The translations under genes were made by a program, and so were the position numbers. Below the pieces are notes generated by a model. It saw only the letters and a list, made by a program, of their open reading frames with translations, was not told the origin of the DNA and did not search any database. From contig JAUXNJ010000040.1 of the NCBI GenBank assembly GCA_030682795.1, forward strand, positions 1 to 64,000: a stretch of 64,000 nucleotides of DNA, given 5' to 3'. Below are positions 1,576 to 24,127 of the stretch, in pieces (position 1 is the first letter of the stretch; each line of letters opens with the position of its first letter). The stretch is from Sphingobacteriaceae bacterium. Lineage in GTDB: Bacteria; Bacteroidota; Bacteroidia; UBA7662.

Positions 1576-1709
1576 TGCCAACGGTTTGCGGCTTTGCGTT
1601 CGGGCGGGATTTTTAGCACTAAACTCGATACGAAGAACCGAATTTCAAATATAGCAAAAAGCGTCAAACAGAGCACTGAACCCCGCCTGACGCAAAACCG
1701 CTGTTAGGT
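1576..1709. repeat. attC-like repeat 1
   Basis: It runs from GCCAAC to GTTAGGT. The left arm GCGGCTTTGCG..GGCGGG pairs with a right arm whose reverse complement is GCGGTTTTGCG..GGCGGG. It is the leftmost intact repeat. The GTTAGGTGC at its right end is matched by GCACCTAAC at 6109-6117, the far end of the cassette 1703-6117. Confidence 0.85.
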
Positions 1710-1727
1710 GCTGGCGTTCTCAAATTG

Positions 1728-2456
1728 TCAATTGTCCTTGAGTTCATTTTCTGTCTCTGTTTTTGTTGTGAATTTTCGGAATAGTTCATAATAAAAACCT
1801 ATTACAAGAAAGTCTCGCCCTGTTTCATCATTTATCTTGTAGTCGAACTGATGTAAATATCCAATTTGCAAAGTTGTTGCCTTTGATGGTTTATAACTAA
1901 TCGTATATTGTAATCTGTTTCGTTCAAAGTAAGGTTCATTGTTGGTAAAAAACAATTCGTTACTAATACTTGACTGAAAAGGTTTGTAGCCATTTCGTTC
2001 TTTGCCAAATGGATAAGATGCACCAAGTCTATAACGAAAACGGTTTCGGTAACCATTACTCGTCCATCGCAATTCTGCTCTGTATCGTTGTTCTATTTTA
2101 AATTTACCAATTGATTGAAAAAGAATTATCTGAGGCCAAACTCTAAATTCATCATTGTTTTTAGGCAAAACAAAGTTGCCTCCTTCTTTATAAGTTTGGT
2201 AACTTCCTGCTCCTAAAGTCAATTTTACATTTTTATGCACTTTGTAGTTAATACCGCCCTTATATTCGTAGTAGTGAAAGTTGTTGTAAAACCTTAATGA
2301 CCGCAATTGGGCTTCGCCAAATAAACTTAGTTTGTCATTGTAGTTGTATTTAATGTTCAATATATTCCAAGAGCCTAAAACTATTTGTTGTGAATATGAT
2401 ATTACAGGATGAAGTGCTAAAAAGAAAAATAATAGTATCGTTCGTTTTTTATTCAT
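1728..2456 (-). CDS. DUF2490 domain protein (predicted outer-membrane beta-barrel)
   Basis: About 242 aa. The start at 2456 (MNKKRTILLFFFLAL) is chosen since it opens a clean signal peptide ending near SYSQQ; two upstream ATGs (2465, 2483) only add a lysine-rich leader. The mature part alternates aromatic and polar residues in beta-strand rhythm (LFGEAQLRSLRF, YHYYEYKGGINY, IEQRYRAELRW, RFRYRLGASYPF). This is the DUF2490 pattern, a family predicted to form outer-membrane barrels of unknown function. It is the last gene of the six-gene cassette 1703-6117 and overlaps the MscS-like gene by 8 bp. A second, divergent DUF2490 gene lies in the same cassette (4488-5270). Confidence 0.75.
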   Translation of the reverse strand: MNKKRTILLFFFLALHPVISYSQQIVLGSWNILNIKYNYNDKLSLFGEAQLRSLRFYNNFHYYEYKGGINYKVHKNVKLTLGAGSYQTYKEGGNFVLPKNNDEFRVWPQIILFQSIGKFKIEQRYRAELRWTSNGYRNRFRYRLGASYPFGKERNGYKPFQSSISNELFFTNNEPYFERNRLQYTISYKPSKATTLQIGYLHQFDYKINDETGRDFLVIGFYYELFRKFTTKTETENELKDN

Positions 2457-2967
2457 TAATTTCATTTTCTTTTGCTTTTTCAACTACCAAAAAGGAGCTT
2501 TTAAGTAGTAAAGCATTAGGTATTGTTAGTATGCCTCTATTTAGTGTTTTAATAAATACAAAAAAGTAGGTAATATCAATTAACTCGCCTTCTGTTTCTT
2601 TACCTTCAAATGTAATTGCAATGGTATCCCCAACTTTTATGGGGTGTTGAAAGAAGAGAATTAAACTTGCAGTAATGTTTGCTAGTATGGACATTTCGGC
2701 AAAAAGAGCAACGCCAAAAACGGTAATCAATGAACTTGCAAAAATTAAAATATTTTCTTGTTTTACACTCCATATAGCTACTATAATAATGCTAAGAACA
2801 ACAATTAATATGAGTCTGATTACTTTCAAAACATCTTTTTGTTCTGCATTCTTGAAGGAAGAATTTTTTATTGTTAGTTTAACGAAATACCTTGAAATTA
2901 TTTTTACAAAAAAAAAGCTAATTACGGCTATAATTGTTTCAATAATTTGAATTTTGTATGTTTCCAT
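2449..2967 (-). CDS. small MscS-family mechanosensitive channel
   Basis: Protein of 172 aa with three hydrophobic helices (about residues 10-28, 52-72 and 75-108) and then the MscS beta-domain text FFQHPIKVGDTIAITFEGKE and TEGELIDITYFFVFIKTLNRG, ending IPNALLL. This is the core of the MscS family, close to the minimum length: the long cytoplasmic cage domain of E. coli MscS is absent. The expected role is a pore in the inner membrane that opens on membrane tension and releases solutes. It sits between the Fic gene (2 bp upstream) and DUF2490 (8 bp overlap), so translation is probably coupled. Confidence 0.8.
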   Translation of the reverse strand: METYKIQIIETIIAVISFFFVKIISRYFVKLTIKNSSFKNAEQKDVLKVIRLILIVVLSIIIVAIWSVKQENILIFASSLITVFGVALFAEMSILANITASLILFFQHPIKVGDTIAITFEGKETEGELIDITYFFVFIKTLNRGILTIPNALLLKSSFLVVEKAKENEINE

Positions 2968-2969
2968 TT

Positions 2970-3767
2970 TTATTGTAGTGTTAGTAGGTTTTCTCTATTT
3001 AAACCAGTTTGGTTAATACTCTCAAAAAGCAACTTGGCATTGTATAATAATCGGTCAAGTTCTTGTTCAAAAAATTGTGAAGTGTCATTGTTCCATTTGT
3101 CTGGTTGTTTCATAAGTTCTTTGAAGCTATTACTCAAGGTGTTTATGTATTCCCTTTTTTGTGAAGCATCATTTATAAATATAGGAGGGAATAAGTCATA
3201 CATCAACATCCAGTTTTTTGCAATTCTTGTTACACGTCCGTTTCCATCTACAAAAGGGTGTATTCTTATTAACTCGTGATGAAAGTAGATTGCTCTGATA
3301 ATTGGATTTGAAATTGTTTGCATTTTATAAAATAGTTCAGAAACTAATTGTGGAACTATCGTTGGCTCGGGACAAATGTGTGCTCCAACTTGAACAAGAG
3401 TTTGCCTGTATCGGTTAGGGTGAATGGAATTAGTTTCAGGAGAAACTAAACGCAATAGCTGAAATAATTGAACCTCTTTTTCAAAATTGTTTTGTAAAAT
3501 TATTTCTTCAACAACAAAATCTAGCGATAATTTTAAATTCAGTAAATACTCCTTGGCCTCATCTTCGTTTTGTGCCTCCATTTGAGCATTTTTAATTCCA
3601 ACAAGTTCTTTTAGATTATGAAAACCTGTTAAATAAATGTCTAAAAGGTCATCGTCTAGGTGGTGTCTGCTATAAATAATTAGGCGATAAATTGACTTTA
3701 TGATTTTTTCAATTTCATCTATTTTATTTTGATTTATTTGTATGATTTCTACGGGTAGTAATTTCAT
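2970..3767 (-). CDS. Fic family protein
   Basis: Protein of 265 aa with the complete Fic motif HPFVDGNGRVTR at residues 170-181 (HPFxDGNGRxxR), including the catalytic histidine. Fic enzymes transfer AMP or other nucleotides onto target hydroxyls. N-terminal residues 1-110 are helical and lack the S/TxxxE(G/N) inhibitory motif in the usual place as far as I can see. The segment IHPNRYRQTLVQVGAHICPEP before the core resembles the Fic_N-type arrangement. It overlaps terC by 4 bp and lies 2 bp from the MscS-like gene. Its position between membrane proteins is unusual for a Fic toxin; no antitoxin gene is adjacent. Confidence 0.88.
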   Translation of the reverse strand: MKLLPVEIIQINQNKIDEIEKIIKSIYRLIIYSRHHLDDDLLDIYLTGFHNLKELVGIKNAQMEAQNEDEAKEYLLNLKLSLDFVVEEIILQNNFEKEVQLFQLLRLVSPETNSIHPNRYRQTLVQVGAHICPEPTIVPQLVSELFYKMQTISNPIIRAIYFHHELIRIHPFVDGNGRVTRIAKNWMLMYDLFPPIFINDASQKREYINTLSNSFKELMKQPDKWNNDTSQFFEQELDRLLYNAKLLFESINQTGLNRENLLTLQ

Positions 3768-4474
3768 TTTGTATATTCTTTATTTGGCATTGTATTAGTT
3801 TTTACTTGTATAAAATTTACGACAAAGGAGAATGCCATTGAAAAATAGATATAACCTTTAGGTATTTCAAAATGCAACCCTTCGCCTAACAAAGCAACAC
3901 CTATCATAATTAAAAAAGATAGTGCTAAAATTTTGAATGAAGGATGTTTTTGTATAAATTCACTTATTGGTTTTGACGCAATAAGCATTATAACCACACT
4001 AACTATTACTGCTACATACATTATCCACAGTTCTTTTACCATACCTACTGCGGTAATAATGCTATCTACAGAAAAAACTAAATCCAAGATTATAATTTCT
4101 ATCAGTAGCTTTCTAAAATTACCATTTATAGTTTTTGCCTTTTCAGGATTATTAGCCAATTCTGTTTTGTGGTAGATTTCTTTAGTGCTTTTCCAAATCA
4201 AAAATATACCTCCTAATATTAATATTACTCCTTTCCCTGAAATGTCTATATTAAGTAACGTAAAAAGTGTTTGGTCTAATTTTAATATCCAAGTGATACC
4301 TGCTAATAATATAAGTCTAAAAACCACAGCCAAGCCAAGCCCCATATATCGAAGTTTGTTTCTTTGTTCGGGCGGTAATTTGTCAGTAAGTATTGAGATA
4401 AAAATGATATTGTCAATACCCAAAATTAATTCTAAAGATATAAGGGTAAGAAGTGGTAGTATGAATTCGCTCAT
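3764..4474 (-). CDS. TerC family integral membrane protein
   Basis: Protein of 236 aa with about seven hydrophobic helices. It opens with MSEFILPLLTLISLELILGIDNIIFISIL and has a second acidic helix LDLVFSVDSIITAVGM. These two D-containing membrane motifs (GIDN, SVDS) are the TerC/Alx signature. Family members are linked to tellurite resistance and Mn2+ export, and to metal loading of exported proteins. It is the third gene of the six-gene cassette and overlaps fic by 4 bp. The metal or stress theme agrees with neighbouring cassettes, but the substrate here is unknown. Confidence 0.88.
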   Translation of the reverse strand: MSEFILPLLTLISLELILGIDNIIFISILTDKLPPEQRNKLRYMGLGLAVVFRLILLAGITWILKLDQTLFTLLNIDISGKGVILILGGIFLIWKSTKEIYHKTELANNPEKAKTINGNFRKLLIEIIILDLVFSVDSIITAVGMVKELWIMYVAVIVSVVIMLIASKPISEFIQKHPSFKILALSFLIMIGVALLGEGLHFEIPKGYIYFSMAFSFVVNFIQVKTNTMPNKEYTK

Positions 4475-4487
4475 TGGTTTTTATTAA

Positions 4488-5270
4488 TTATTGTATTGTT
4501 TTTTTACTCAAGTCTATATTGAAGTTTGCGTTTAAAATAAGTCCGTTATTGTATTGAAATACATTTCTACTGTTCACTTCTCTGCCTAATTGAACTATTT
4601 GATTTAGGTACCCTGCTTCAATACGGACAGAAGAATTAAAGCGATAGCCCAAAAGAATACCTAACCTGTTTTGGTCAAAAATATTTTCATTTACGTTTTT
4701 TCCAAAACCAATAAATATTTCGTCATAAATAGCAACATAAGGCGTTTTGTCTTTTACCTCCGTTCCTTTTAACGGAACTTGACAACGAAACATATACCTA
4801 AAACGGTTTAACAACGGAAACTCATCTTCTTTGTTCAAATTGGTTGTAGAGTATCTGCCAACCCAACGTTGCTCAAGCATAAATCGGTGTGATAAATCTG
4901 GAATACCTACTTTGTCGGTTATTGTTGCCATTTGAAAAAGGCGATGTTCGGTAAAATCTTTACCCATTCCATTTATTGGGATTTCACCATAAGGAAAAGT
5001 TTCTATCCAAGCATAGCCAACTCGAAGCTGTATTTTTGGATTCAGTTGATAATTTAACCCAACACGTAATAAACTTTGTTGCCATTCAGTAATTATATCG
5101 TTTCTACGAAATTGATATTCGGTATGTAACCCGAATTTATTGTTTAACTTAAAAGTTCCAAAATAATTATACCAACCAATAGAATTATGGTTTGTAATTC
5201 TTGTGTTTTGAGCGAATGTAATATTACTCAATAGTATAAAAGATATTAAAGTTATTTTTCGGAGTATCAT
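4488..5270 (-). CDS. DUF2490 domain protein, second copy
   Basis: About 260 aa. The start at 5270 (MILRKITLISFILLSNITFAQ) gives a signal peptide ending in FAQ, while the longer upstream frame runs through the terminator hairpin at 5287-5311. The mature text (HTEYQFRRNDIITEWQQSLL, YQLNPKIQLRVGYAWIETFP, LEQRWVGRY, NRFRYMFRCQVPL, RIEAGYLNQIVQLG) is DUF2490-like with barrel-type strands. It is related to but clearly diverged from the DUF2490 protein at 1728-2456; both belong to one cassette. The function of the family is unknown. Confidence 0.78.
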   Translation of the reverse strand: MILRKITLISFILLSNITFAQNTRITNHNSIGWYNYFGTFKLNNKFGLHTEYQFRRNDIITEWQQSLLRVGLNYQLNPKIQLRVGYAWIETFPYGEIPINGMGKDFTEHRLFQMATITDKVGIPDLSHRFMLEQRWVGRYSTTNLNKEDEFPLLNRFRYMFRCQVPLKGTEVKDKTPYVAIYDEIFIGFGKNVNENIFDQNRLGILLGYRFNSSVRIEAGYLNQIVQLGREVNSRNVFQYNNGLILNANFNIDLSKKTIQ

Positions 5271-5286
5271 AAATTGAAAAGAGAAA

Positions 5287-5311
5287 TAGGGGTGAGCCTT
5301 GCTCACCCCTA
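5287..5311 (-). terminator. hairpin between lipoprotein and DUF2490 genes
   Basis: TAGGGGTGAGC / CTT / GCTCACCCCTA forms a perfect 11 bp stem just after the stop of the lipoprotein gene (5320). On the minus strand it is followed by T-rich TTTCTCTTTTC. It is likely a terminator or attenuator that reduces read-through into the other five genes of the cassette. Confidence 0.65.
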
Positions 5312-5319
5312 TTAGGAAA

Positions 5320-5985
5320 TTATTTTGTTGCTGGTGCAAATGGAAGCGAAGATTTATGTACAATAATTCTAAGTTTTCCGTCTTTGCCTTTTTTGAAAAC
5401 CCAAGTTTTGTCTACCATAACTTCCTTCCCGTCTTTGCCTGTTACCCATACATTACCCATTGTTATGGCTACTGAACCATAAATTTGTATCCCTTCATTT
5501 TTTTCTCCTGAGTTGTCATATCTTGCTTTTACCCAAGGTGTCAATGCAAAGCCTTTGTCGTTAGGATAGTCGGGGTCGCCACCAATAAAATAAGCTAATG
5601 CACCCTTTTTGTCGTTTCTAAAAGTTTGGTCGCCATAGGCTAATGTTGGTTTGAAAAACACTTTACCGCTGTCATAATTGTAGGCAGAAGAAAGTACTTC
5701 ACTTGCAAATGCTTTGTAATCACCACCTTCTTCTTTCAGTTTGCCGATTTTTACCAAGGCATCGCACCAAGCCTGTTGTGCAGCATTTACTTCTTCGTAC
5801 GTAATAATCGTTTGTGCACCTTCTTCAACGTAAACAAGTCCTAAATCGTTAATTGTTTTTTGTACGCTCTGGTTTGTTTGAGCAATTACCTTGTTTGCCT
5901 CATCTTTTACTTTTTCTGTTGCTTGGTTGCAAGATGTTACTAAACTCGTTGTTACAAGTAAACCGAAAATCCATTTTTTTTTCAT
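5320..5985 (-). CDS. NTF2/SnoaL-like lipoprotein, function unknown
   Basis: About 221 aa with a signal peptide and lipobox (VTTSLVTSC, Cys near residue 19), a helical linker, and a C-terminal domain ending VMVDKTWVFKKGKDGKLRIIVHKSSLP. This reads like the last strands of an NTF2/SnoaL-type fold (SxxW/TW..V.....G.w.I..h.SS). It is the first gene of the six-gene cassette, with a -7 promoter element upstream and a hairpin downstream, so it may be expressed more than the genes behind it. Assignment to the fold is by eye; I do not claim an enzymatic function. Confidence 0.6.
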   Translation of the reverse strand: MKKKWIFGLLVTTSLVTSCNQATEKVKDEANKVIAQTNQSVQKTINDLGLVYVEEGAQTIITYEEVNAAQQAWCDALVKIGKLKEEGGDYKAFASEVLSSAYNYDSGKVFFKPTLAYGDQTFRNDKKGALAYFIGGDPDYPNDKGFALTPWVKARYDNSGEKNEGIQIYGSVAITMGNVWVTGKDGKEVMVDKTWVFKKGKDGKLRIIVHKSSLPFAPATK

Positions 5986-6047
5986 TGTCATTTTATTTAT
6001 TTTTTCTTTTGCCTACTTCTTAAAACGGTGTTCGGCTTTTCCGTGTG

Positions 6048-6055
6048 CAAAGATA
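6048..6055 (-). promoter_or_regulatory. Bacteroidota -7 element of the six-gene cassette
   Basis: TATCTTTG on the minus strand fits TAnnTTTG exactly, 63 nt before the lipoprotein start at 5985 and inside the cassette near its integrase-side end. The cassette therefore seems to carry its own promoter; no clear -33 element is seen. Confidence 0.45.
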
Positions 6056-6110
6056 ACTTATTTTTAGTGGCTGGGTTTTCAGTTTTAGTACGAGGCAGTC
6101 TTACGCTTGC

Positions 6111-6242
6111 ACCTAACGTTTTGCGGCTTTGCGAAGAAGCGGATTTCGGAGTACTAAACTGTCAATACATCACAAAAGTTGATGCGAGGTAGAATGTTCA
6201 ATTAACCACTGAACCCGCTTTTTTGCAAAACCGCTGTTATGC
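6111..6242. repeat. attC-like repeat 2
   Basis: It runs from ACCTAAC to GTTATGC. Stem arms: GCGGCTTTGCGAAGAAGCGG on the left, and GCGGTTTTGCAAAAAAGCGG as reverse complement of the right, with mismatches at stem positions 5, 11 and 14. The loop text (AGTACTAAACTGTCAATACA, then TTGATGCGAGGTAGAATG) is shared with repeats 8, 13 and 14 although the stem differs. Confidence 0.92.
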
Positions 6243-6266
6243 CTTCGTTGTTCTTTCATCCGTCTG

Positions 6267-7631
6267 TCAGTGCGTTAGGGAAGGCACACTCTTTGGCAAG
6301 TTTTGGTCAAGGGTTGGGATTGTGCGACTTGCCAATGTGTGTGACTTTGAAGCGTTGGCTTTTGTCTTGTTAAATATGTCGTTGTTTTCAATTAGGTCTG
6401 TGATTACTGCCTCAATTACTGGAACAGAAACAGCATTGCCCATTTGCTTATAAACCGCATTGTCGTTGTCTAGTAGTTTATATGTATCCGGGAAACCTTG
6501 AAGTCTTGCACATTCTCTCGGTGTCAATTTTCTTGCTCTGCCATTTTGAACAATTCCAAGTCTATTTGTGTCGGAAGCGGTCAGCGTAATTGAAATACTT
6601 TCGGGGTCAAGGAATTTGAAAACTTCAAATGACATATTTCCTGCTACTGGATTATACTTGTCTTCATAAGCACTCAAATAACCTTTGTTTACTAATGAAT
6701 TCAAAATGGTTTCAAGGTCGTTCTTTTTGTAAAATGTTTTAATTTGCTCAATTGTCAATGACTTTCCGTCTTGATGAGTGCCGAAAGTTTTCTTTCTTCG
6801 GTTTCCGATTAGAAGATTTAAAAATTCAATTTCTGCTTTTGTACACTTTCCTTTTATTCCTAATTCCCACGAGTGAATTGCTTGTCCACCTCTGTAATCA
6901 ATAAGTCTATAGCCGTGAAGTTTGGATAAATCTTCACCAACTACATTTTTTAACTTATTTACAAAGTCTTTTGTACACTCATATTTTTCTGGAAATTCTT
7001 TTTCAAGAATATCCTTTACTACTCGAATTGTTTTCGGTTCTGAAAAAAGTGAGGTTTGTCCGTTTTGTTCTTTAAATTTATGTGAGTCAGAAGCACCAAC
7101 GTCAGATTGAAGTTTCATTTTTATTGGTTCTTCTAATGTGCCAAGTATGTATATTCTTACTCTGTTTTGAGGAACACCAAAGTTGCTGCTGTTCAATAAA
7201 AGATAATTGACACTGTACCCAAGGTTTTTTAAACTATGGATGATCGTTTCAAAAGTCCGCCCTTCATCGTGTGTTGTAAGCCCTCGAACATTTTCTAACA
7301 AAAAGCCTTTAGGCTTGTATTTAGCAAGTAGTCTTTCCACTTCAAAAAATAGAGTTCCTCTTGTTTCGCCAAATCCTCTGCGTTTTCCTGCGTAGGAAAA
7401 CGATTGGCAAGGAAACCCTGCTAACATAAAATCAAAAGGAGGCAATTCCTCTACTTTAGTAACGTCTGAATATGGGTTGTGTCCAAAGTTCAATTCATAA
7501 GAAGCACAAGCATTCTTATCAATTTCTGATGAAAACACACATTCAGTTTTTAAATTAAACTTTTTACAAGCCTGTTCAAAACCTAAACGAATGCCTCCCG
7601 TTCCAGCGAATAAATCAATGAATTTTATCAT
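6267..7631 (-). CDS. DNA (cytosine-5) methyltransferase, restriction-modification
   Basis: Protein of 454 aa with the ordered motifs of C5-cytosine methyltransferases: motif I FIDLFAGTGG (4-13), motif IV GFPCQS with catalytic Cys75, motif VI ENV (113-115), motif VIII-like QNRVRIYILG, a variable target-recognition region (about 190-340), and C-terminal motifs ARLQGFPD and QMGNAVSVPV. The host enzyme methylates C5 of cytosine in a restriction site. The last about 35 residues (after the motif X region) are low-complexity and run almost to repeat 2, so the true family C-terminus may be shorter than this frame. It overlaps the endonuclease gene by 4 bp (ATGA); the set is one cassette (6236-9195). 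Confidence 0.92.
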   Translation of the reverse strand: MIKFIDLFAGTGGIRLGFEQACKKFNLKTECVFSSEIDKNACASYELNFGHNPYSDVTKVEELPPFDFMLAGFPCQSFSYAGKRRGFGETRGTLFFEVERLLAKYKPKGFLLENVRGLTTHDEGRTFETIIHSLKNLGYSVNYLLLNSSNFGVPQNRVRIYILGTLEEPIKMKLQSDVGASDSHKFKEQNGQTSLFSEPKTIRVVKDILEKEFPEKYECTKDFVNKLKNVVGEDLSKLHGYRLIDYRGGQAIHSWELGIKGKCTKAEIEFLNLLIGNRRKKTFGTHQDGKSLTIEQIKTFYKKNDLETILNSLVNKGYLSAYEDKYNPVAGNMSFEVFKFLDPESISITLTASDTNRLGIVQNGRARKLTPRECARLQGFPDTYKLLDNDNAVYKQMGNAVSVPVIEAVITDLIENNDIFNKTKANASKSHTLASRTIPTLDQNLPKSVPSLTH

Positions 7632-8659
7632 AGCACACTTTTTATCCAGTTAGACAATACTTTAAATTCTGCAAGAGTGTAGGCTACTGTGCAATCGCTG
7701 TGATTACAAATTGTAGAAATTGCAGATGAGCGTTGGAAATTTCCTGCACCGTCAAGAACATAAGCAATGTGGTAACCGCTTTTGTGAACTAATGCCTGAC
7801 GGTCGGCTGCTTGTCCTGCTTTTCTTTCTATGGTACTATTTGTAGTAACCTGGAAGCTAACTTCTATTCCAACTTTTTTCTTTCCTTTTTCAACAACTAA
7901 GTCGAAAGGCATTCCACCTTTTTTATCATAACCTTCAATGGTAATGTAACCATTGCGAATAATTTTGTATTTGTCTCCAAGCTCTTTAGTAAGGAAACTT
8001 ACTATTTCTGTTTGGGCTAATTGACCCAAACTATTTGCAATTGCACCGCTTGTCTGTTTACTGACGACTATATATCTCTGTTTTACGAATTTTGTTAACA
8101 CATCCTCATCGCCAAGCATAGTGCCAATTTCACAAGCAGTTAAGCCAGCGTGTTCAGCATAATCAGAAGTTGAAGCAAACAATAAAAGTGCAATCATATC
8201 GCACGTTAAATCGTCTAATTCCTTTTCTATAATTAATCCAGAACCATCTATGAACAGCTTTTTGCTGTTTAATCCATTAACAGGTAAAGCTTTAAACTCG
8301 TATCTATATGATTTTTCTTTCCAAATGAAATCGAAATAGTATTTTCCATTTGCACCTTTTCCTTTTGGGAAAATGTCTTTGAAAGAACGACCTAAACGTT
8401 GAATTGGTTCACCTCCATAATCTGACAAAACGGCTAAATGTTTTAGAAAAAGATTAGCTGGGTATTTAGCAACCTTTATTAAATCAAAAAGCTGAAATGG
8501 GTCATTTTTACTTAAAACGATAAGATGCAAAAAGTCATCTTGCGTTTTGAGAAGCAAAGGAAGAACATTAGCTAAAGCATTTTTTGTTTTTAATTCTTCG
8601 GGCCACCACATTGCAGCCTTTGTTTTAAGTTCCGTTATATTTCTGTTGTATTTAGCCAT
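7628..8659 (-). CDS. probable type II restriction endonuclease
   Basis: Protein of 343 aa lying between the C5-methyltransferase (4 bp overlap) and an HTH controller gene (8 bp overlap), the classic place for the cognate endonuclease. A PD-(D/E)XK-like core is visible at about 250-270: PFDLVVEKG then VGIEVSFQ (Asp253, Glu266-x-Ser), followed by ERKAGQAADRQALVHKSGYHIAYVLDG. The third catalytic lysine is replaced by serine or lies elsewhere, so the active site is only a proposal. The specificity cannot be read from sequence. Residues 160-220 may form a winged-helix-like module (my inference). Confidence 0.65.
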   Translation of the reverse strand: MAKYNRNITELKTKAAMWWPEELKTKNALANVLPLLLKTQDDFLHLIVLSKNDPFQLFDLIKVAKYPANLFLKHLAVLSDYGGEPIQRLGRSFKDIFPKGKGANGKYYFDFIWKEKSYRYEFKALPVNGLNSKKLFIDGSGLIIEKELDDLTCDMIALLLFASTSDYAEHAGLTACEIGTMLGDEDVLTKFVKQRYIVVSKQTSGAIANSLGQLAQTEIVSFLTKELGDKYKIIRNGYITIEGYDKKGGMPFDLVVEKGKKKVGIEVSFQVTTNSTIERKAGQAADRQALVHKSGYHIAYVLDGAGNFQRSSAISTICNHSDCTVAYTLAEFKVLSNWIKSVL

Positions 8660-8972
8660 TATGAGTTTTTAGATATTTAATTTTGCTTTCAGCGACCTTC
8701 AAAATGTTTAAATCCATTTCTTCGTTCAAGATTTTATAAACGATTTGGTCGCTAAGAAATTCATCAACCAATTCTTTTTCATCTACTTTAAAAAAGTCCG
8801 CAAGTTGTTTTATTAGTTGTCGAGTTGGCTGTCTTTCATTGCGTTCAATTTTTGCAAGGAGAGAAGTGTCAAGAGATAAACTTGTAGCAACTTCACGTAA
8901 TGTCAAGCCATTTATTTCTCTCAGTGTCCTGAGATGTTCTCCGAAAGTTGTATATTTTTTCACGACTGTCAT
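8652..8972 (-). CDS. XRE-family controller (C) protein of the restriction-modification set
   Basis: 106 aa from the ATG at 8972. This start is chosen because a good promoter (8989-9019) lies just upstream and would leave a leader of about 10 nt. The longer frame (to 9044) would begin upstream of that promoter. Residues 10-65 form an HTH_3 domain (FGEHLRTLREINGLTLREVA, LAKIERNERQPTRQLIKQLA). C proteins bind tandem operator boxes at their own promoter and time endonuclease expression after entry into a new host, which suits a mobile cassette. The C-terminal about 40 residues are helical and may mediate dimerisation. Confidence 0.8.
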   Translation of the reverse strand: MTVVKKYTTFGEHLRTLREINGLTLREVATSLSLDTSLLAKIERNERQPTRQLIKQLADFFKVDEKELVDEFLSDQIVYKILNEEMDLNILKVAESKIKYLKTHNG

Positions 8973-9027
8973 TTGGTCAATTTGTGTCCAAAAGTAGGTA
9001 TTATTTTTCTTTTGGTCAAAAACAGTC
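8972..9027 (-). promoter_or_regulatory. promoter and candidate C-box region of the restriction-modification cassette
   Basis: On the minus strand TTG (9019-9017), 20 nt, then TACTTTTG (8996-8989) matches a Bacteroidota -33/-7 promoter. The octamer-like TTTGGTCAA occurs twice in direct orientation (8972-8980 and 9011-9019), bracketing the -7 element. GACTGT (8964-8969) and ACAGTC (9022-9027) form an outer inverted pair. These are candidate controller boxes; the operator assignment is inference. Confidence 0.45.
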
Positions 9028-9188
9028 CACAAAATTTTATTCACATTGTCGAGGGTGGGAAATTTTAGCTCTTTTGGTTGCGAAGCGGTCGGCTATGTGT
9101 CGGGCAACCAAATGTGCTAAAATGTGCGGTTGGCTATTTCGTTTTCTTGTCGAAGTCTGTCGGTTTACACGGGTCGTCCTACAATGAG

Positions 9189-9321
9189 GCATAACGTTCC
9201 CACGCTTGGCGCAGTGGCGGACATTGAAAAACTTCACTTTAAATTTTGCACAAATGAACAATAGAAATACAGAACTTGAACTTAGCACATCACCCGCCAT
9301 TGAGCCAAACGTGTGTTGTGC
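9189..9321. repeat. attC-like repeat 3
   Basis: It runs from GCATAAC to GTTGTGC. Left arm CACGCTTGGCGCAGTGGCGG; right arm reverse complement CACGTTTGGCTCAATGGCGG (mismatches at 5, 11, 14). The end is GTTG, not GTTA, and the cassette that follows ends in CAAC, so this base varies together at the two ends of the cassette. Confidence 0.9.
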
Positions 9322-9481
9322 GCCCGTGCTTTCTAAACGTCCGTGGAATTACGGGAAAAGAAAGCCTGTTGAAGAAGATGGTGAACTGTGGTGTAATTGC
9401 ACCAAACCTAAATTAACGTCAAATGCTGGTGGTCGTGGGCAGGCTTTCTGTCTGCTGTGCGGAACTCCGTGGTATCATTAG
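9254..9481 (+). CDS. small cysteine-motif protein in the shortest cassette (reverse orientation)
   Basis: 75 aa, the only plus-strand gene inside the array. From the ATG at 9254 (MNNRNTELELST) the frame runs out of repeat 3, across the whole 166 bp interval and stops 7 bp before repeat 4. The C-terminal half has a zinc-ribbon-like pattern: ELWCNCTKPK then GGRGQAFCLLCGTPWYH (CxC and CxxC). This is good evidence that the frame is real rather than chance. An alternative start at 9206 (TTG) lies deeper in the repeat. The function is unknown; metal binding is inferred from the cysteines. Confidence 0.6.
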   Translation: MNNRNTELELSTSPAIEPNVCCAPVLSKRPWNYGKRKPVEEDGELWCNCTKPKLTSNAGGRGQAFCLLCGTPWYH

Positions 9482-9487
9482 CATGGC

Positions 9488-9618
9488 GCACAACGTTTGG
9501 CGGCTTGGCGAAGGTGGCGATTTAACCACAAATGTTCATACGAAGCACACACTTCAAATTTACGAAAAACTGTCATACGAAGCACTGAACCGCCACTTTT
9601 GCCAAACCGCTGTTAGTG
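9488..9618. repeat. attC-like repeat 4
   Basis: It runs from GCACAAC to GTTAGTG. Left arm GCGGCTTGGCGAAGGTGGCG; right arm reverse complement GCGGTTTGGCAAAAGTGGCG (mismatches at 5, 11, 14). The opening CAAC pairs with the GTTG at the other end of the 180 bp cassette, not with its own GTTA. Confidence 0.9.
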
Positions 9619-9643
9619 GCTGGGCTTCTTTGTTTTCCGTCTG

Positions 9644-9850
9644 TCAGCAACATTTTTTGTCCTGCTGAATTGGTGGACAAGCAACACTTCCGTAGCTACA
9701 ATAAACACAGCAGTCGCCTTGTTTTGGTTTTAGAACTTGTTTGCATTTTTCACATTCGTAAAAATATTGGCAAGCGTCTGTCGGCATTGTTTCTTCTTTC
9801 TTATGTCCGCAGTTGGGGCAAGTTATTGTTGATTGTAATTTGATTTCCAT
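9644..9850 (-). CDS. GDCCVxC domain protein
   Basis: 68 aa with two Cys pairs of a zinc-ribbon type (CPNCGHKK, CEKCKQVL) and the family signature GDCCVYCSYGSVACPPIQ, ending KKCC. Members of the GDCCVxC family sit beside mercury-transport genes, and some carry selenocysteine in the signature; here cysteines are encoded. It is 1 bp downstream of merTP in a three-gene cassette (9612-10929). Its likely role is intracellular binding or handling of Hg(II), which is inferred from context. Confidence 0.85.
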   Translation of the reverse strand: MEIKLQSTITCPNCGHKKEETMPTDACQYFYECEKCKQVLKPKQGDCCVYCSYGSVACPPIQQDKKCC

Positions 9851-9851
9851 T

Positions 9852-10451
9852 TTAATTTTCTTTTTTGTCGGTTACAGAATATCCTGTTGAGTTTATTGCT
9901 TTTTCGATTTCAGAAATATTTGTTTTTGAGTTGTCAAATTCTATGATTGCATTTCCATTTTCATATGAAGCGTTTGAACTTATTATTCCTGTCAATTTAT
10001 TTACTTCGTGATTTACGTGTTCTTCGCAACTCGCACAAGTCATTCCGCTAATCGTAAATTTTACTTTTTGAATATTGGATTTGTCCACTACTATGATTTG
10101 CTTTTCTTTCTTTGGGTAGAAAATGCTTGAATAGTATGGAAAGGCAAGCATAACGATTGCAAATGCTGTTACAATTCCTAAAAACATTTTTGACTGAATG
10201 AATTTTGGTTTTTCTTCTGTTTCACAATTGCAGTCAATTTGCTTTTTAGGTTTTAACTTTTGATACCAAGCAAAACCAAGAACTAAAATTGTCAAACCGA
10301 TAAAATAAGGTCGAAAAGGTTCAAGCCAAGAAAAAGTTGAAGCAAGTCCGCTTGTCCCTGCGATTAAAGCCAAGACAGGTGTAATACAACACAATGAAGC
10401 TGCAATTGCTGTTAAAAGTCCTGCTCCGATTAGTTTTTTGTCTGCTTTCAT
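9852..10451 (-). CDS. merTP: mercuric transport protein MerTP (MerT-MerP fusion)
   Basis: 199 aa. Residues 1-100 hold three to four hydrophobic helices of the MerT type, with the vicinal Cys pair SLCCITPVLA in the first helix and a cytoplasmic DCNCE motif. Residues about 125-199 form an HMA domain with GMTCASCEEH, the MerP metal-binding motif. MerTP takes up Hg(II) across the inner membrane for reduction or sequestration inside. It overlaps arsR by 4 bp. No merA reductase lies in the cassette, so uptake without local reduction is odd; merA may be elsewhere, or the GDCCVxC protein may receive the metal. Confidence 0.92.
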   Translation of the reverse strand: MKADKKLIGAGLLTAIAASLCCITPVLALIAGTSGLASTFSWLEPFRPYFIGLTILVLGFAWYQKLKPKKQIDCNCETEEKPKFIQSKMFLGIVTAFAIVMLAFPYYSSIFYPKKEKQIIVVDKSNIQKVKFTISGMTCASCEEHVNHEVNKLTGIISSNASYENGNAIIEFDNSKTNISEIEKAINSTGYSVTDKKEN

Positions 10452-10822
10452 AATGTTTCTAATATTTTGTTTTCGTCAAGTATTTTGAAAAACGGTTTCA
10501 GCATTTTTTCATACTCTTTTGTCAATGAGTAAAAAATGGTTTGAGCTTCTCGTTCGGTTTCAATTAGTTTTCGGTCTTTGAGTTTTCGCAAGTGTTGAGA
10601 AACTGCTGAAATTGTCATACCGAGAATGTCGCTTATATCACAAACACAAAGTCGTTTTTCTTCATATAGTAAAAAGAGAATTTTCAGCCTTACGTTGTTT
10701 CCTGCTAATTCAAGTCCGTTCGATAAATAGTCAAACGAGTCGTTGAGTTCTGAAACTCTGTCTTTACAGCGATTTATTTGTTTAATGTCTGCTTGTTGTC
10801 GTATGCAAGAATTGTTGTCCAT
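10448..10822 (-). CDS. ArsR/SmtB-family metal-sensing repressor
   Basis: 124 aa from the ATG at 10822 (MDNNSCIRQQADIK). The longer frame begins inside the operator. A winged helix at 35-115 contains the sensor motif ERKLCVCDIS-like RLCVCDIS in alpha-3 and the recognition helix MTISAVSQHLRKLKDRKLIETER. The Cys-x-Cys pair in the DNA-contacting region is the ligand set of ArsR/CadC-type soft-metal sensors. It heads the merTP cassette and probably represses it until Hg(II) binds. A perfect palindrome lies 19 bp upstream of its start. Confidence 0.9.
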   Translation of the reverse strand: MDNNSCIRQQADIKQINRCKDRVSELNDSFDYLSNGLELAGNNVRLKILFLLYEEKRLCVCDISDILGMTISAVSQHLRKLKDRKLIETEREAQTIFYSLTKEYEKMLKPFFKILDENKILETL

Positions 10823-15173: not shown

Positions 15174-15211
15174 ATTCTGTTTTGTTTGTTACTGTGTCTT
15201 TTAAAAATGCC

Positions 15212-15343
15212 CTATAACGTTTTGGCGCTTGGCGCAGTGGCGGATTTCGGAGCACAAAACTGTCAATACACCACAAAAGTTGATGCGAGGTAGAATGTTC
15301 AATTAACCACGACACCCGCCATTGAGCCAAACGCCTGTTACCA
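15212..15343. repeat. attC-like repeat 8
   Basis: It runs from CTATAAC to GTTACCA. Left arm GGCGCTTGGCGCAGTGGCGG; right arm reverse complement GGCGTTTGGCTCAATGGCGG (mismatches at 5, 11, 14). Apart from the cassette-specific ends it differs from repeat 13 at about two positions by eye. Confidence 0.92.
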
Positions 15344-16242: not shown

Positions 16243-16374
16243 TGGTAACGTTTTCGGGCTTGGCGAAGGTGGCGATTTTCACCACAAATGTTGATGCGGA
16301 GAACCAAACTTTGATTAACCACAAATGTGTCTGCGGAGAACTGAACCGCCACTTTTGCCAAACCCGTGTTATGC
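16243..16374. repeat. attC-like repeat 9
   Basis: It runs from TGGTAAC to GTTATGC. Left arm CGGGCTTGGCGAAGGTGGCG; right arm reverse complement CGGGTTTGGCAAAAGTGGCG (mismatches at 5, 11, 14). The inner text shares ACCACAAATGTT with repeat 4. Confidence 0.92.
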
Positions 16375-16396
16375 GTTCGGCTTTCTTGTCTGCCCG

Positions 16397-18151
16397 TCAT
16401 ACCACCATATTTTTAAGCTGTGTTTTTAATAGTTCCTTTCGTTTAATTACAAAGTTCTTGAAGTCCACAATGTCAAGGCTTTCATTCGGAATTAGTTGAT
16501 TTACTTTGTCAATATTATTTGTTGTAACCCAGTCTTTTAGTGGTGATGCAAGTTTGGATTGATTTAAAGTTCCATTAAGCAATTGTAGATTTCCAATTCC
16601 GTTCCAGTTTGTTGGGTCTTTGTAAAAGTTAAAATCATCTTCTGTTTGGAAGTCTGCTTTTTTAATTCCGTTAAAATAACTTGCAGGATGCAAATGGTCT
16701 TTGTGGTAGTCTTGATTACCAAAGTTTAGATGCGAATAAATTAATGATAGAATTGCAAAACAGTCTGGTGCATCTTTTTGGGTTGTAAGTAAACCCTCAA
16801 TTAGTTCATCGTCAAAAGAAAGATTTTTAGCTGGATTGGCTTTAAACTCATCTTTAATTCTGTCTAATGGAAATGTAGGTTGTTTTGTAGTGTCTGCTAA
16901 CTCTGCTTTTATTGCCTTACGTAAACCACCTAAAACAGTATCAGATTGACTGCCAAATACACCTTTAAGTAAAGAAGCACAAAGCCATTTTCTAATTAAT
17001 TGTTTGTCGTCTTTGTGTTTGATTGGACTATTAATGTCGTTTTCAATTCCACGATGATAAATGTAATAGATGATTGGAATTACAGCGTTTTTAGCTCTTA
17101 GGTTTTGGTTGTTGAAACCAAGATTTGCAAGTAAAGTGAATGCTTCCGTTATGCTCTTTTTTATTCTGTCCCAGTTTTTTTCAAATATGATAACATTGCT
17201 TTGGTCAAAGTTTTTTACTTGAAATTTGATGTTATCATTGAATAATACAAGGCAAGTTTTTAAAACAAAATCTTTGTTGATTAGAAAGCCAGGGTTTCCA
17301 ATTTCAAAAACCTTATTTACAACGTCTGGTATTTCTTTTCTTGCATCGGATTTCCAATGTGCAGTTGTTATTGACATTAGTAAATCAGAAAAACTTAATG
17401 GTTCACCACCGCTATTGGTTCTTATGAAAATATCTAATACAGTATCAATTTCCTGTGTTTTTTCAAGATAATAATTTATCAAAGGCTCTTTGAAAATTAC
17501 CTCAAACAATTTTCTGATTGTCTGTTTTGTAAAATCCTTGTTTAGCCAGCCTTTGCTATCTATGTAATTGTCTATTTCGTCTTTGGTCTTAAATGTTAGA
17601 ATGTCATTGATTTTATACCAAATTGAATATAGGTCTTCGGATTTTTTTTCAAACTCTTGCTTTGTTAGAAACTGAAAGTCATAAATCATTTGTCTTTCGT
17701 TTTCATCAGGTAATGCTTGTGATAAATTCAAATAAAGGTGTCGTGTTGGTAAATTTTCTTCATTATTATACCACCATTTTCTTGGCAATTTATAAGCGTA
17801 AGAACCTTTTAAACCAATGTATAAACTCGTTAGTCTTTGTTGTCCGTCAATTACAGCTAAAAAATCTTTGTAGCCTTTGGTGTCAATATCTGGATTGTCC
17901 TCTTTGAAAAACTGTCTGTATTCAGTTAGGAACTGATAAAACTTAAATTCATTTTTTACTTTATCTTCCTTGACTTCCCAAAACATAAATGAGTTTATGG
18001 GGTATCCTCTCATTATACTGTCAAAAAGAATTTCAATTTGGTCGCTACTCCAAACAAACTTTCTTTGAATGGCAGGTAATAAATAGGTTCTGTCAACAAT
18101 TTTATCAATTGCTTCCTTTATTGTTATTGGGTTTACAAATCCGCTGGACAT
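16397..18151 (-). CDS. DUF262/DUF1524-type protein (GmrSD-like, putative defence nuclease)
   Basis: 584 aa from the ATG at 18151 (MSSGFVNPITIKEAIDKIVD); the longer frame runs through the upstream terminator hairpin. The N-terminal DUF262 domain has LLPAIQRKFVWSSDQIEILF, MRGYPINSFMFWEV and the ParB-like catalytic text FLAVIDGQQRLTSLYIGLKG. The C-terminus has NQDYHKDHLHPASYF and NGIGNLQLLNGTLNQSK, an HNH-like DUF1524 signature. Both halves of the GmrS/GmrD type IV restriction logic are in one chain. Some relatives nick modified phage DNA. It shares cassette 16368-18585 with the repeat protein at 18200-18502. Confidence 0.88.
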   Translation of the reverse strand: MSSGFVNPITIKEAIDKIVDRTYLLPAIQRKFVWSSDQIEILFDSIMRGYPINSFMFWEVKEDKVKNEFKFYQFLTEYRQFFKEDNPDIDTKGYKDFLAVIDGQQRLTSLYIGLKGSYAYKLPRKWWYNNEENLPTRHLYLNLSQALPDENERQMIYDFQFLTKQEFEKKSEDLYSIWYKINDILTFKTKDEIDNYIDSKGWLNKDFTKQTIRKLFEVIFKEPLINYYLEKTQEIDTVLDIFIRTNSGGEPLSFSDLLMSITTAHWKSDARKEIPDVVNKVFEIGNPGFLINKDFVLKTCLVLFNDNIKFQVKNFDQSNVIIFEKNWDRIKKSITEAFTLLANLGFNNQNLRAKNAVIPIIYYIYHRGIENDINSPIKHKDDKQLIRKWLCASLLKGVFGSQSDTVLGGLRKAIKAELADTTKQPTFPLDRIKDEFKANPAKNLSFDDELIEGLLTTQKDAPDCFAILSLIYSHLNFGNQDYHKDHLHPASYFNGIKKADFQTEDDFNFYKDPTNWNGIGNLQLLNGTLNQSKLASPLKDWVTTNNIDKVNQLIPNESLDIVDFKNFVIKRKELLKTQLKNMVV

Positions 18152-18173
18152 AATTTTTTTTTGAGATTTAAAA

Positions 18174-18196
18174 AATGTGGGGCGAAGCCCCACATT
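18174..18196 (-). terminator. rho-independent terminator after the repeat-protein gene
   Basis: AATGTGGGGC / GAA / GCCCCACATT is a perfect 10 bp stem, followed on the minus strand by TTTTTT. It sits between the stop of the small repeat protein (18200) and the DUF262 start (18151), so the two genes of this cassette are probably separate transcription units. Confidence 0.8.
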
Positions 18197-18199
18197 CAT

Positions 18200-18502
18200 T
18201 TAGATTGTTCTTATGAGTGTGCCACTTTCTTTTCTTACTTCAGTCTTACCTTTTGATGTTGTTACAAGAATGTCGCTACCGCTAAATTTTGCGTTAGTTG
18301 CATCTCCGTTACCAATTGACCTTATCAAAGTCCCGCTTTCTTTGCGTAACTCAACTTTACCCTTTATTGTTGTCACCAAAATAAGTGAGCCGTCATTGTT
18401 GATGTCTGCATTAACTGCATCACCGTTCCCAATTGTCCTGATTAGAGAACCGCTGTCTTTACGAAGTTCTACTTTGCCGTTGTTGATTTTTAGAATGTTC
18501 AT
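18200..18502 (-). CDS. small protein built of three near-identical repeats
   Basis: 100 aa consisting of three copies of a unit of about 37 residues of the type GKVELRKESGTLIRSIGNGD, followed by a variable stretch and ILVTT. The last copy is cut short after IRTI. Each unit would give about four short beta strands, as in a propeller blade, but three units are too few for a closed monomeric propeller, so assembly into a multimer is likely (inference). No signal peptide. It has its own terminator. It is upstream of DUF262 in the same cassette; a regulatory link is possible but not shown. Confidence 0.7.
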   Translation of the reverse strand: MNILKINNGKVELRKDSGSLIRTIGNGDAVNADINNDGSLILVTTIKGKVELRKESGTLIRSIGNGDATNAKFSGSDILVTTSKGKTEVRKESGTLIRTI

Positions 18503-18578
18503 TTTGTTTGTTTTTTACGTTATTTAGTTTTGTCCCCGGTCAGGTCGGTAAACTGTCACCCTGCGTTTTTAAGCTGAC

Positions 18579-18710
18579 GCATAACGTTTCGCAGCTACCC
18601 GAAGGGCGGGACTTTTACCACAAAACTTGATTTGAAAAACGAATGTTTCATTAACCACTAAACTGTCTTTGGAGCACGAAACCCCGCCTTTTGGGTAGGT
18701 GCTGTTAGTG
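18579..18710. repeat. attC-like repeat 10
   Basis: It runs from GCATAAC to GTTAGTG. Left arm GCAGCTACCCGAAGGGCGGG; right arm reverse complement GCACCTACCCAAAAGGCGGG (mismatches at 4, 11, 14). Confidence 0.92.
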
Positions 18711-19461: not shown

Positions 19462-19593
19462 CACTAACGTTTTGCAGCTACCCGAAGGTGGCGATTTCGA
19501 AGCACTTCACTGTCAACTAAGCACAAACTTTGATAGAAGCACAAAGCTTGATTTAACCACTGAACCGCCACTTTTGGGTAGGTGCTGTTATGC
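19462..19593. repeat. attC-like repeat 11
   Basis: It runs from CACTAAC to GTTATGC. The stem arms are identical to those of repeat 7 (GCAGCTACCCGAAGGTGGCG and partner), and the loop is almost identical too; the cassette-specific ends differ. This shows that stem/loop and ends evolve independently. Confidence 0.92.
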
Positions 19594-20502: not shown

Positions 20503-20634
20503 GCATAACGGTTTGCCGCTTTGCGAAGGCGGGGATTTTCAGCACTAAACTTCATTAGAAGCACAAAGCTTGAATTTAACACTTCACTGTCATAGAAGCA
20601 CGAAACCCCCGCTTTTGCAAAACGGCTGTTAGCA
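20503..20634. repeat. attC-like repeat 12
   Basis: It runs from GCATAAC to GTTAGCA. Left arm GCCGCTTTGCGAAGGCGGGG; right arm reverse complement GCCGTTTTGCAAAAGCGGGG (mismatches at 5, 11, 14). Confidence 0.92.
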
Positions 20635-21154: not shown

Positions 21155-21286
21155 TGCTAACGTTTTGGCGCTTGGCGCAGTGGCGGATTTCGGAGCACAA
21201 AACTGTCAATACACCACAAAAGATGATGCGAGGTAGAATGTTCAATTAACCACGTCACCCGCCATTGAGCCAAACGCCTGTTACCA
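21155..21286. repeat. attC-like repeat 13
   Basis: It runs from TGCTAAC to GTTACCA. The stem arms are the same as in repeat 8 (GGCGCTTGGCGCAGTGGCGG and partner). Internal text differs from repeat 8 at about two positions by eye, although the two lie 5.9 kb apart. Confidence 0.92.
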
Positions 21287-21985: not shown

Positions 21986-22117
21986 TGGTAACGGTTTGGC
22001 GCTTGGCGCAGTGGCGGATTTCGGAGCACAAAACTGTCAAAACACCACAAATGTTGATGCGAGGTAGAATGTTCAATTAACCACGTCACCCGCCATTGAG
22101 CCAAACGCCTGTTACCG
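21986..22117. repeat. attC-like repeat 14
   Basis: It runs from TGGTAAC to GTTACCG. The stem is the same type as repeats 8 and 13. The GTTACCGCC at its right end is matched by GGCGGTAAC at 22851-22859, but no repeat stem follows there: the far end of this cassette has lost its repeat. Confidence 0.9.
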
Positions 22118-22786: not shown

Positions 22787-22859
22787 AAGATATAAATTTA
22801 TTTGGTTGTCAAATTTATGTTTTTGTTTTGTCGGTTCGTTTTTTAGCATTGGCGGTAAC

Positions 22860-23057
22860 TTACTTATAGGCGAATAAAAATCATTCTATGCGGGATAACG
22901 TTGGAAGCTAGGTATGTTTTTATGCGCTCCTGCAAGATAGGAGATTTATAGTAATTTGAACAATGGCCGTTATTATAATCACAATGGTCATTCGAGGACC
23001 GCATTAGTTGGCTTGACGCGGTAGGGGCCAATGAACGCCCTGTTTGGGTACCCGCAT
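22860..23057. other. gene-free disrupted zone of the array
   Basis: No credible gene. It begins directly after the orphan cassette end GGCGGTAAC (22851-22859), where a repeat stem would be expected. GGGATAACGTTGGAAGCT at 22893-22910 looks like the opening of another repeat, and GCCAATGAACGCCCTGTTTG at 23025-23044 weakly resembles a right arm. The arms no longer pair convincingly. It is probably a mutated or rearranged repeat. Confidence 0.35.
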
Positions 23058-23203
23058 GAGTAAAGTTCTCGCGTTTGGCGCAGTGGCCCCGATGGCCATC
23101 GGGATAAGGAGCACTACCCTTGATTGCCTGCACGATGGACTAAAGTACGAAATGGTTTCAGTTTAGTACTAAAACCCCCATTGCAGCCAAACGCGTGTTG
23201 TAT
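23058..23203. repeat. attC-like repeat 15 (degenerate, 146 bp)
   Basis: Related to repeat 5: left arm CTCGCGTTTGGCGCAGTGGC, right arm CCCCCATTGCAGCCAAACGC. It opens with GTAAAG instead of TAACG and ends GTTGTAT. An extra block of about 14 bp, around the palindrome CCCGATGGCCATCGGG (23088-23103), interrupts the left side and explains the length. Probably no longer functional. Confidence 0.75.
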
Positions 23204-23210
23204 CCCGTTG

Positions 23211-23875
23211 TCACATGTCTTTTGATATTAGTCCTTTGAAATTTTTGATACTATTGTCAACATGGTTTAGTTCATTCACCCATTCAACAAGGTCTTTGCT
23301 TAGCCATTCAATACCTTCAATAATTCCATTTTTATATGAATGAAGGGCATTTAAATCCCAACTGATGGCTTCGTGGTGAAATATTCTATTGCGTAATTTT
23401 CTAATTCCATTGAATTTGGAACTCATTGTCTTTCGCTTTCTGATTTGTTTCGGACAATTTGGAAAGGCCAGCCTTAAGTTCTTCCAAAGTGACATTTCAA
23501 ATTTTGCATCAAAAAGGGAGGTCCAAAATCCAAATGACAGTTCTGAGATGATTCTTCCAGGTGTAACTTCCTTTTTTTCGGACTGAATCTTTGTTCTAGC
23601 TTCAGATATCTTATCTATTTGAAATCTAGTGGCTATTTTGATAAAGTCTTTATGATCGTACCATTCTTTATCGTCAAATTTTTTTGTCAGTTGGATAGCT
23701 ATTGCATTTCTTAAACCAATCTCAAGAATTGAAAGTAGGGGATAAATGATTCTGAAATGAGTATGTTGCTTTTGTAATGATCAAGCGCTTTTGAAATGTC
23801 ACGTTTGTTGTGGTTCAAATATGGCTCAAGCCTTTCGGATGAAATGATCCTGTCAACTATTGCCTGTTTATCCAT
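23211..23875 (-). pseudogene. Abi-family (abortive infection) protein, frameshifted
   Basis: The ATG at 23875 starts MDKQAIVDRIISSERLEPYL and reads to SNILISESF; the frame then breaks at about 23741-23747. One missing T in TCATTTATCCCC would restore PLLSILEIGLRNAIAIQLTK. After the break the frame continues through KKFDDKEWYDHKDFIKIA, TPGRIISELSFGFWTSLFD and the signature RKLRNRIFHHEAI to the stop at 23211. The whole resembles Abi-like (Abi_2) proteins, which have a HEPN-like RN..FH motif and block phage growth. It is either a genuine 1 bp deletion or a sequencing error in a T run. It lies at the recombinase-side end of the array. Confidence 0.75.
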
Positions 23876-24127
23876 AAACTTTGTACCTTTGTGTTCTAGT
23901 CCCGGTAATTCCTCTCCCAGTTTTTATGCTGGTGATGAAGCCGGGTTCTTTGTTTTATATCGTTGAATCTACTTTATTCCGATTCAAATCCCTTTTTTCT
24001 ACATTTTCAGTTTTGAGGCAGGCTTATTTTGACTATAGGCGAAATCTCCTATTATAAGGACAATTTTCTGATTTCTACTGGAGCCCCATCACAGTCAAAC
24101 ACGAGTCACGAGCACTACCACTTACCA
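23876..24127. other. gene-free stretch with a decayed repeat arm
   Basis: No open frame of interest. CCCCATCACAGTCAAACACGA at 24084-24104 (first 20 bases quoted in part) resembles the right arm of repeats 5 and 15 (CCCCCATTGCAGCCAAACGC). I read it as the remnant of a sixteenth repeat, or of a primary attachment site, at the recombinase end of the array. Confidence 0.35.

Follow-up and report, generated by a model that had tools for sequence, protein, structure and literature searches.

A stretch of 64,000 nucleotides from a Sphingobacteriaceae bacterium of the phylum Bacteroidota (positions 1 to 64,000 of contig JAUXNJ010000040.1, assembly GCA_030682795.1; hereafter the window) carries an array of hairpin-forming repeats close to a gene encoding a tyrosine recombinase, all on the minus strand (Table 1). 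A covariance model search of the window found 15 such sites (C0 to C14) between 1579 and 23200, dividing 14 intervals. The model was built from the 14 good sites, which score 103-131 bits; C0 is degenerate and was left out of the build, scoring 50.7 bits. Without their outer arms the good copies measure 125-128 nt and C0 140 nt, which fits the fourteen repeats of 131-134 bp and the one of 146 bp described in the initial annotation of this DNA. All annotated cassette genes lie on the minus strand and stop shortly before the next site, much as that annotation had noticed for nearly all genes. No family in Rfam was matched by the site. The contig begins at position 1 of the window, and the array may extend beyond it. 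The locus is very probably a chromosomal integron-like platform of Bacteroidota, operated by the recombinase beside it.

Read in gene direction, the 5' half of each site consists of (T/C)AAC, a single A, a 10-nt arm, 4 nt, a 7-nt arm and about 70 nt, and the 3' half of the second 7-nt arm, 4 nt, the second 10-nt arm, 5 nt and GTT(A/G). Pairing was found in 96.6% of stem cells, compared with 75.1% after shuffling, and 53 cells were compensatory, with both sides changed (19 when shuffled). The stem covariation score of 0.529 (shuffled 0.149, standard deviation 0.024) was lost when the partner was shifted by one column. The two stems are maintained by compensatory changes. The inner 10-bp stem has equal arms forming 10 consecutive pairs with no bulged base, and its pair 5 is often T-G (A-C on the opposite strand).

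We propose that each cassette comprises one to several genes and a 3' attC-like site, and that it is cut and joined at G^TT (^ marking the junction). A cassette would thus begin with TT and finish with the G closing its own site, and in the circularised form the joined ends would rebuild a complete hairpin. The start of a cassette must then complement the nucleotides before the AAC of its own 3' site, because both form one arm in the circle. In the window this complementarity is perfect over 6-7 nt in 12 of the 14 intervals, and a thirteenth matches once the R'' box of C10 is set at CCCTATAAC (13/14). The summed end match was 77. In 100,000 permutations the mean was 20.8 and the highest value 56, so that none reached it; this figure is conservative, having been obtained with the uncorrected R'' position of C10. 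Of 48 neighbouring intervals in arrays of other genera, 37 had an end match of at least 5 nt, compared with a mean of 1.8 and a maximum of 9 after permutation; the failing ones include long gaps where a site probably escaped detection. Across 49 cassettes, nucleotide 8 of the outer arm is an A that is always unpaired (49/49), and complementarity reaches nucleotides 9-12 beyond this mismatch (80-90%). The outer arm is therefore about 14 nt long with an invariant mismatch. The two outer arms of one site within an array mismatch because they are derived from different cassettes, and they are complementary only in the circular form. Two minor observations concern cassette starts. Those at 9192 and 20506 belong to different cassettes and share an identical first ~25 nt (TTATGCCTCATTGTAGGACGAC), and an ACGAC/GACGACA motif lies 10-20 nt past the start in many cassettes of other genomes, in some also just 5' of the 3' site.

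Mobility was examined using cassette 11 at its predicted limits, from TT to G, as the query. It was found at its full 1,435 bp with 97% identity in four other genomes from four different families, and at 94% in Flavobacterium denitrificans. In all five genomes the homology starts at G^TTAGTGG and stops at AAACG^TT or AAACCG^TT, and the 100-nt flanks are 24-39% identical to those in the window, compared with 94-97% inside the cassette. On the left it adjoins a further site in the four genomes with 97% identity, and attI in F. denitrificans. A second cassette is common to two other loci (79% identity, same edges). Shared stretches between L110 and L149 and between L050 and L091 were not counted, being no clean cassette units. 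A fixed gene order among relatives had been named in the initial annotation as the outcome that would speak against a cassette array; the order is not fixed, because near-identical cassettes sit in differing neighbourhoods and genomes. These alignments indicate that cassettes are mobile between positions and between genomes.

Hairpins lying just past stop codons could also be regulatory elements or terminators, or belong to a dispersed palindromic family, with no cassette movement at all. Single copies are indeed present elsewhere in the genome: six weaker sites (30-69 bits) lie outside the array, on contigs C40, C21, C9, C41, C29 and C23, and are possibly lone cassettes or old insertions. The annotation had worried that the repeats might be equally common outside the array; they do occur there, as these six weaker single sites. 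Terminators, however, would have no need of complementary cassette ends, the same cassette occurs with exact ends in different places, and its far end predicts attI (below). As cassettes are shared between genomes we exclude this explanation, to which we give next to no credence.

In the recombinase, all residues to which a catalytic role is assigned (R224, K249, H314, R317, H340 and Y349) are intact. The IntI profile TIGR02249 aligns to the family as two separate segments (2-179 and 238-315), skipping 180-237 and never rising above the cut-off, and residues 182-241 of the IntI4 structure sequence have no counterpart in the recombinase, which is thus without the IntI-specific insertion (I2). 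The predicted structure (mean predicted local distance difference test score, pLDDT, 84; predicted template modelling score, pTM, 0.54) is closest in fold to archaeal XerA and IntI4, XerA (4a8e) being best by both sequence and fold. In a tree of 67 sequences with the insertion columns removed, IntI, represented by only eight sequences mostly from viral contigs, forms one clade (100/99), and the Bacteroidota integrases together with some XerA-like relatives form a neighbouring group (90/96). The two are jointly separated from XerC, XerD and archaeal XerA at 98/91. On this tree the recombinase family is sister to IntI. Among phage records no close homologue was found, the best matches being IntI1 at 32%. 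The non-IntI recombinase that the initial annotation had noted nearby is real. Residues 1-75 form a conserved N-terminal domain (strand/helix pattern EEHEEHE, motif GARWSxTxxxW) that is absent from IntI and Xer.

To place attI, we took the terminal sequence of the first cassette from the first site, which lies hundreds to thousands of bp away, and used it to predict the insertion point. The predicted cassette start fell 60-120 bp past the recombinase stop codon in 29 of 35 loci, whereas a control with ends swapped between loci gave a mean of 0.9 and a maximum of 4 of 35. The aligned sequences read TATAnACnAG^TT with a small inverted repeat just before, in which T-A-T-A, A and G are near-invariant. 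The motif TATAnnnnAG^TT was present at this position in 58 of 69 loci and in 0.4% of control windows; 25 of those 58 loci are among the 33 that have no detected site. In relatives, attI thus lies about 100 bp downstream of the recombinase stop codon.

Sites and recombinase are also linked across genomes. An alignment of recombinase relatives was scanned over 84,980 species genomes and 80 loci were taken, about one megabase in all. All 87 site-model matches near these homologues share the strand of the recombinase; 84 lie downstream of it, in ~268 kb of sequence, and 3 upstream, in ~659 kb. No site was found at the comparison loci, namely nine XerC/D genes (within ~1.5 kb), eight IntI and eight other XerA-like genes. 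This bears on a further explanation. The pdif modules of Acinetobacter plasmids are units moved by XerC/XerD at dif-like sites, and dif sites are 28 bp long. XerC/XerD could be imagined to move the present units in the same way, as this genome has XerC/XerD-like genes and the recombinase family is itself Xer-like. Nevertheless, the sites are ~125-nt hairpins with a covarying stem, unlike the 28-bp dif, and both sites and attI track the other recombinase. XerC/XerD-dif and archaeal XerA share the recombinase superfamily, but there are no cassette arrays there and the recombinase of the window falls in a different clade. We consider movement by XerC/XerD very improbable.

Plasmid searches with the recombinase as the query connected this platform to resistance genes. 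Members of the recombinase group lie directly upstream of blaVEB-3 in Klebsiella and Aeromonas plasmids (L190, NZ_CP084417.1; L196, NZ_CP083462.1) and of tet(X3) in Acinetobacter. After the recombinase, the blaVEB-3 plasmid reads ATATTAGGGAG and, directly across the junction, TTAGCGGTAATTTAACC. The blaVEB cassette of class 1 integrons starts at its junction with the identical TTAGCGGTAATTTAACC and closes in AACTACCGCTAAC, so that the same cassette is present at the attI of this recombinase group and in class 1 arrays. Its 3' site was read from the class 1 copies, as that of blaVEB-3 in L190 is cut off, and it gives a weak match (22.6 bits, E 0.0028) to the site model, which does not match the canonical attC sites of the two class 1 loci concerned. 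In Bacteroides fragilis, tet(X2) has a strong site on either side (78 and 79 bits), and in Riemerella one site follows tet(X) (84.5 bits). The arm CGGCACATAAC of these sites complements the tet(X3) start TTATGTGCC, and the tet(X4) copy of E. coli is truncated within the arm CGGCACATAAC. The tet(X3) copy appears rearranged, because the site fragment after the gene mismatches its own start. The tet(X5/X6) genes in an IncW class 1 integron (L201) were not used, as the start is no clean tet(X) cassette junction.

The xerD-tet(X3) modules on Acinetobacter plasmids have been reported as borne by ISCR2, in papers that do not settle what XerD does there (PMC8635130, PMC7473080). The recombinase group described here includes the xerD/TnpF gene lying upstream of tet(X3), and after the tet(X) genes come sites of this type, whole or truncated. 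This offers an answer to the question whether the XerD beside tet(X) mobilises it (PMC7473080), and a source platform for blaVEB is suggested.

An ordinary integron, or a cluster of attC sites lacking integron integrases (CALIN), with a canonical IntI, encoded elsewhere or lost, acting on canonical attC sites, would have the same cassette logic, R/L arrangement and G^TT junction, and a blaVEB cassette with this site type evidently entered class 1 integrons. Because class 1 integrons took up that cassette, IntI1 can probably use at least some such sites. However, no IntI above the family cut-off was found in 40 related genomes including that of the window, the strand and side of the sites follow a different recombinase with its own attI, and the site model misses the neighbouring canonical attC in two class 1 arrays. 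We therefore find an ordinary integron or CALIN highly unlikely.

The likeness to IntI integrons, both class 1 and the chromosomal ones of Vibrio, is nonetheless extensive. It covers hairpin-ended cassette arrays with AAC and GTT outer boxes, the G^TT junction with complementary cassette ends, insertion at an attI beside the integrase, found here in relatives, and cassettes common to distant genomes. In contrast, the Bacteroidota integrase is without I2 and falls outside the IntI clade, its attI is placed downstream of it, it is encoded in the same direction as the cassettes, and cassettes have up to six genes. Compared with attC, the outer arm is ~14 nt with an invariant mismatch at nucleotide 8 instead of a 7-nt box, the spacers are 1 nt and 5 nt, the inner 10-bp stem is unbulged, and the length is near-constant at ~125 nt. 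In textbook attC, the extra-helical base or bases of the L stem set strand choice (PMC2727003). Archaeal integrons are alike in arrays, attC folding and attI, but they have an IntI with the IntI-specific domain (PMC9668308). As four features of IntI integrons are present (boxed arrays, complementary G^TT ends, attI in relatives and cassette mobility) and two are absent (I2 and the extra-helical L-stem base or bases), we file the platform as an integron-like sister class outside IntI integrons.

In the mechanism that we propose, a recombinase related to XerA and IntI would insert cassettes at attI, ~100 bp past its own stop and in the same transcriptional direction, and would also excise and reshuffle them, the excised cassette being a circle. 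The adjacent recombinase is the putative catalyst, and the copy in the window may still be functional. By analogy with IntI, one folded strand of the site would be the substrate, cut at G^TT, and attI would be cut as well. Strand choice, rather than relying on bulged bases and I2, would depend on the invariant mismatch of the outer arm, on pair 5 and on the unequal spacer lengths. Such a single-strand mechanism seems to us fairly probable.

Alternatively, the adjacent recombinase may use double-stranded sites, in which case the hairpins would merely resemble single-strand substrates. The recombinase is without I2, the helix held responsible for single-strand recombination in IntI (PMC7790495). 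The inner stem has no bulged base, and the bottom-strand core is predicted to be more stable in 74 of 97 sites, a weak bias. On the other hand, covariation of the arms keeps the fold rather than the sequence, the outer arms, which come from different cassettes within the array, match only in the circle, and the outer-arm mismatch is strictly conserved (49/49). Double-stranded recombination is thus a serious contender that we judge rather unlikely, and we retain the folded single strand as the favoured substrate.

The platform is widespread. Site matches were found in 43 of 60 genomes of relatives, and an even sample of Bacteroidota contained sites in 136 of 297 genomes (~46%) and 80 of 141 genera; E-values of the site model are approximate. 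The covariance model scan that the initial annotation had advised thus detects sites phylum-wide, and its suggestion of a distinct integron-like Bacteroidota platform holds, given these sites and the cassettes shared in varied neighbourhoods. That annotation made no mention of end complementarity, the attI of relatives, the sisterhood with IntI or the link to tet(X) and blaVEB. For Bacteroidetes, IntegronFinder 2.0 reported only In0 elements and a complete integron, the latter in Salinibacter (PMC9024848), so that, with sites in so many of the sampled genomes, a large cassette pool seems uncounted. No published description of the platform was found in the open-access papers searched, which take in no preprints and only a minority of subscription journals.

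We lean towards a second, phylum-wide integron lineage, sister to IntI, that would capture hairpin cassettes without I2 and in which tet(X) and blaVEB would have circulated as cassettes before reaching Gammaproteobacteria. Such a group makes the claim that I2 is necessary testable and provides a natural outgroup for tracing how integrons arose. Three side observations concern its spread. In one genome (G240, contig C1) sites are scattered over 3235124-3297491, which suggests an array of >60 kb, with isolated sites elsewhere. The recombinase family also occurs in metagenome-assembled genomes from bins labelled non-Bacteroidota, an Ignavibacteria (L095) and an Azoarcus (L109), reflecting either transfer or a binning error. 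A Chryseobacterium plasmid (L191, NZ_CP041688.1) has the recombinase, the attI motif and three sites, and the system is therefore plasmid-borne too.

Several points weigh against the platform as proposed. The site structure, the cassette unit and its junctions, the attI of relatives, mobility and the recombinase linkage are all evident from comparison, yet the case as a whole rests on sequence. Because the 80 loci were selected by their recombinase, sampling was not blind to the linkage, although this choice left strand and side unconstrained. Several site-bearing genomes have no close homologue of the recombinase, and trans-acting or lost enzymes are therefore needed there. The predicted strand asymmetry is modest. 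In the window itself, C0/C1 is the sole interval failing the end test, and a motif search recognised no attI. The window copy may for these two reasons be partly dead. Its integrase-proximal end looks decayed or diverged. At the locus of the closest homologue (L005) no attI was seen by eye; a genome of the same family as that of the window (L006) has a normal one. The integrase-proximal end of the window array holds, besides the degenerate C0, two related helix-turn-helix genes, at 24128-24436 and 24490-24801.

Table 1 Features of the array and the integrase region in the window.
Feature	Position	Strand	Description
Tyrosine recombinase, 369 aa, proposed integrase	25073..26182	-	N-terminal extra domain, core-binding and catalytic domains
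Integrase-proximal region	23201..25072	-	two helix-turn-helix genes, possibly a broken gene; no recognisable attI, no cassette with matching ends
C0, degenerate attC-like site, integrase-proximal	23061..23200	-	50.7 bits; cassette ends mismatch
C1 attC-like site	21989..22114	-	covariance model, cassette-end test
C2 attC-like site	21158..21283	-	covariance model, cassette-end test
C3 attC-like site	20506..20631	-	covariance model, cassette-end test
C4 attC-like site	19465..19590	-	covariance model, cassette-end test
C5 attC-like site	18582..18707	-	covariance model, cassette-end test
C6 attC-like site	16246..16371	-	covariance model, cassette-end test
C7 attC-like site	15215..15340	-	covariance model, cassette-end test
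C8 attC-like site	12853..12978	-	covariance model, cassette-end test
C9 attC-like site	11653..11778	-	covariance model, cassette-end test
C10 attC-like site	10926..11050	-	covariance model, cassette-end test
C11 attC-like site, ends mer cassette	9491..9615	-	covariance model, cassette-end test
C12 attC-like site	9192..9318	-	covariance model, cassette-end test
C13 attC-like site	6114..6239	-	covariance model, cassette-end test
C14 attC-like site	1579..1706	-	covariance model, cassette-end test
Cassette 6, 2,336 bp	16249..18584	-	GmrSD-type nuclease (PADLOC HEC-05) and small protein
Cassette 8, 2,362 bp	12856..15217	-	Eco57I-like restriction-modification protein
Cassette 9, 1,200 bp	11656..12855	-	YhcG/DUF1016 nuclease (PADLOC PDC-S02)
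Cassette 11, 1,435 bp	9494..10928	-	MerT mercuric transporter and ArsR-type regulator
Cassette 12, 299 bp, very short	9195..9493	-	ends match; no clear gene
Cassette 13, 3,078 bp	6117..9194	-	BanI-type restriction endonuclease, C5 methylase, helix-turn-helix controller
Cassette 14, 4,535 bp	1582..6116	-	Fic, TerC, mechanosensitive channel, two DUF2490 genes; six reading frames

The recognised cargo of the array consists mostly of defence and stress genes (Table 1). Multi-gene cassettes as large as the longest ones here (3.1-4.5 kb) are uncommon in integrons. Cassette 13 holds a complete BanI-type restriction-modification system, including its controller, within a single 3.1-kb unit.

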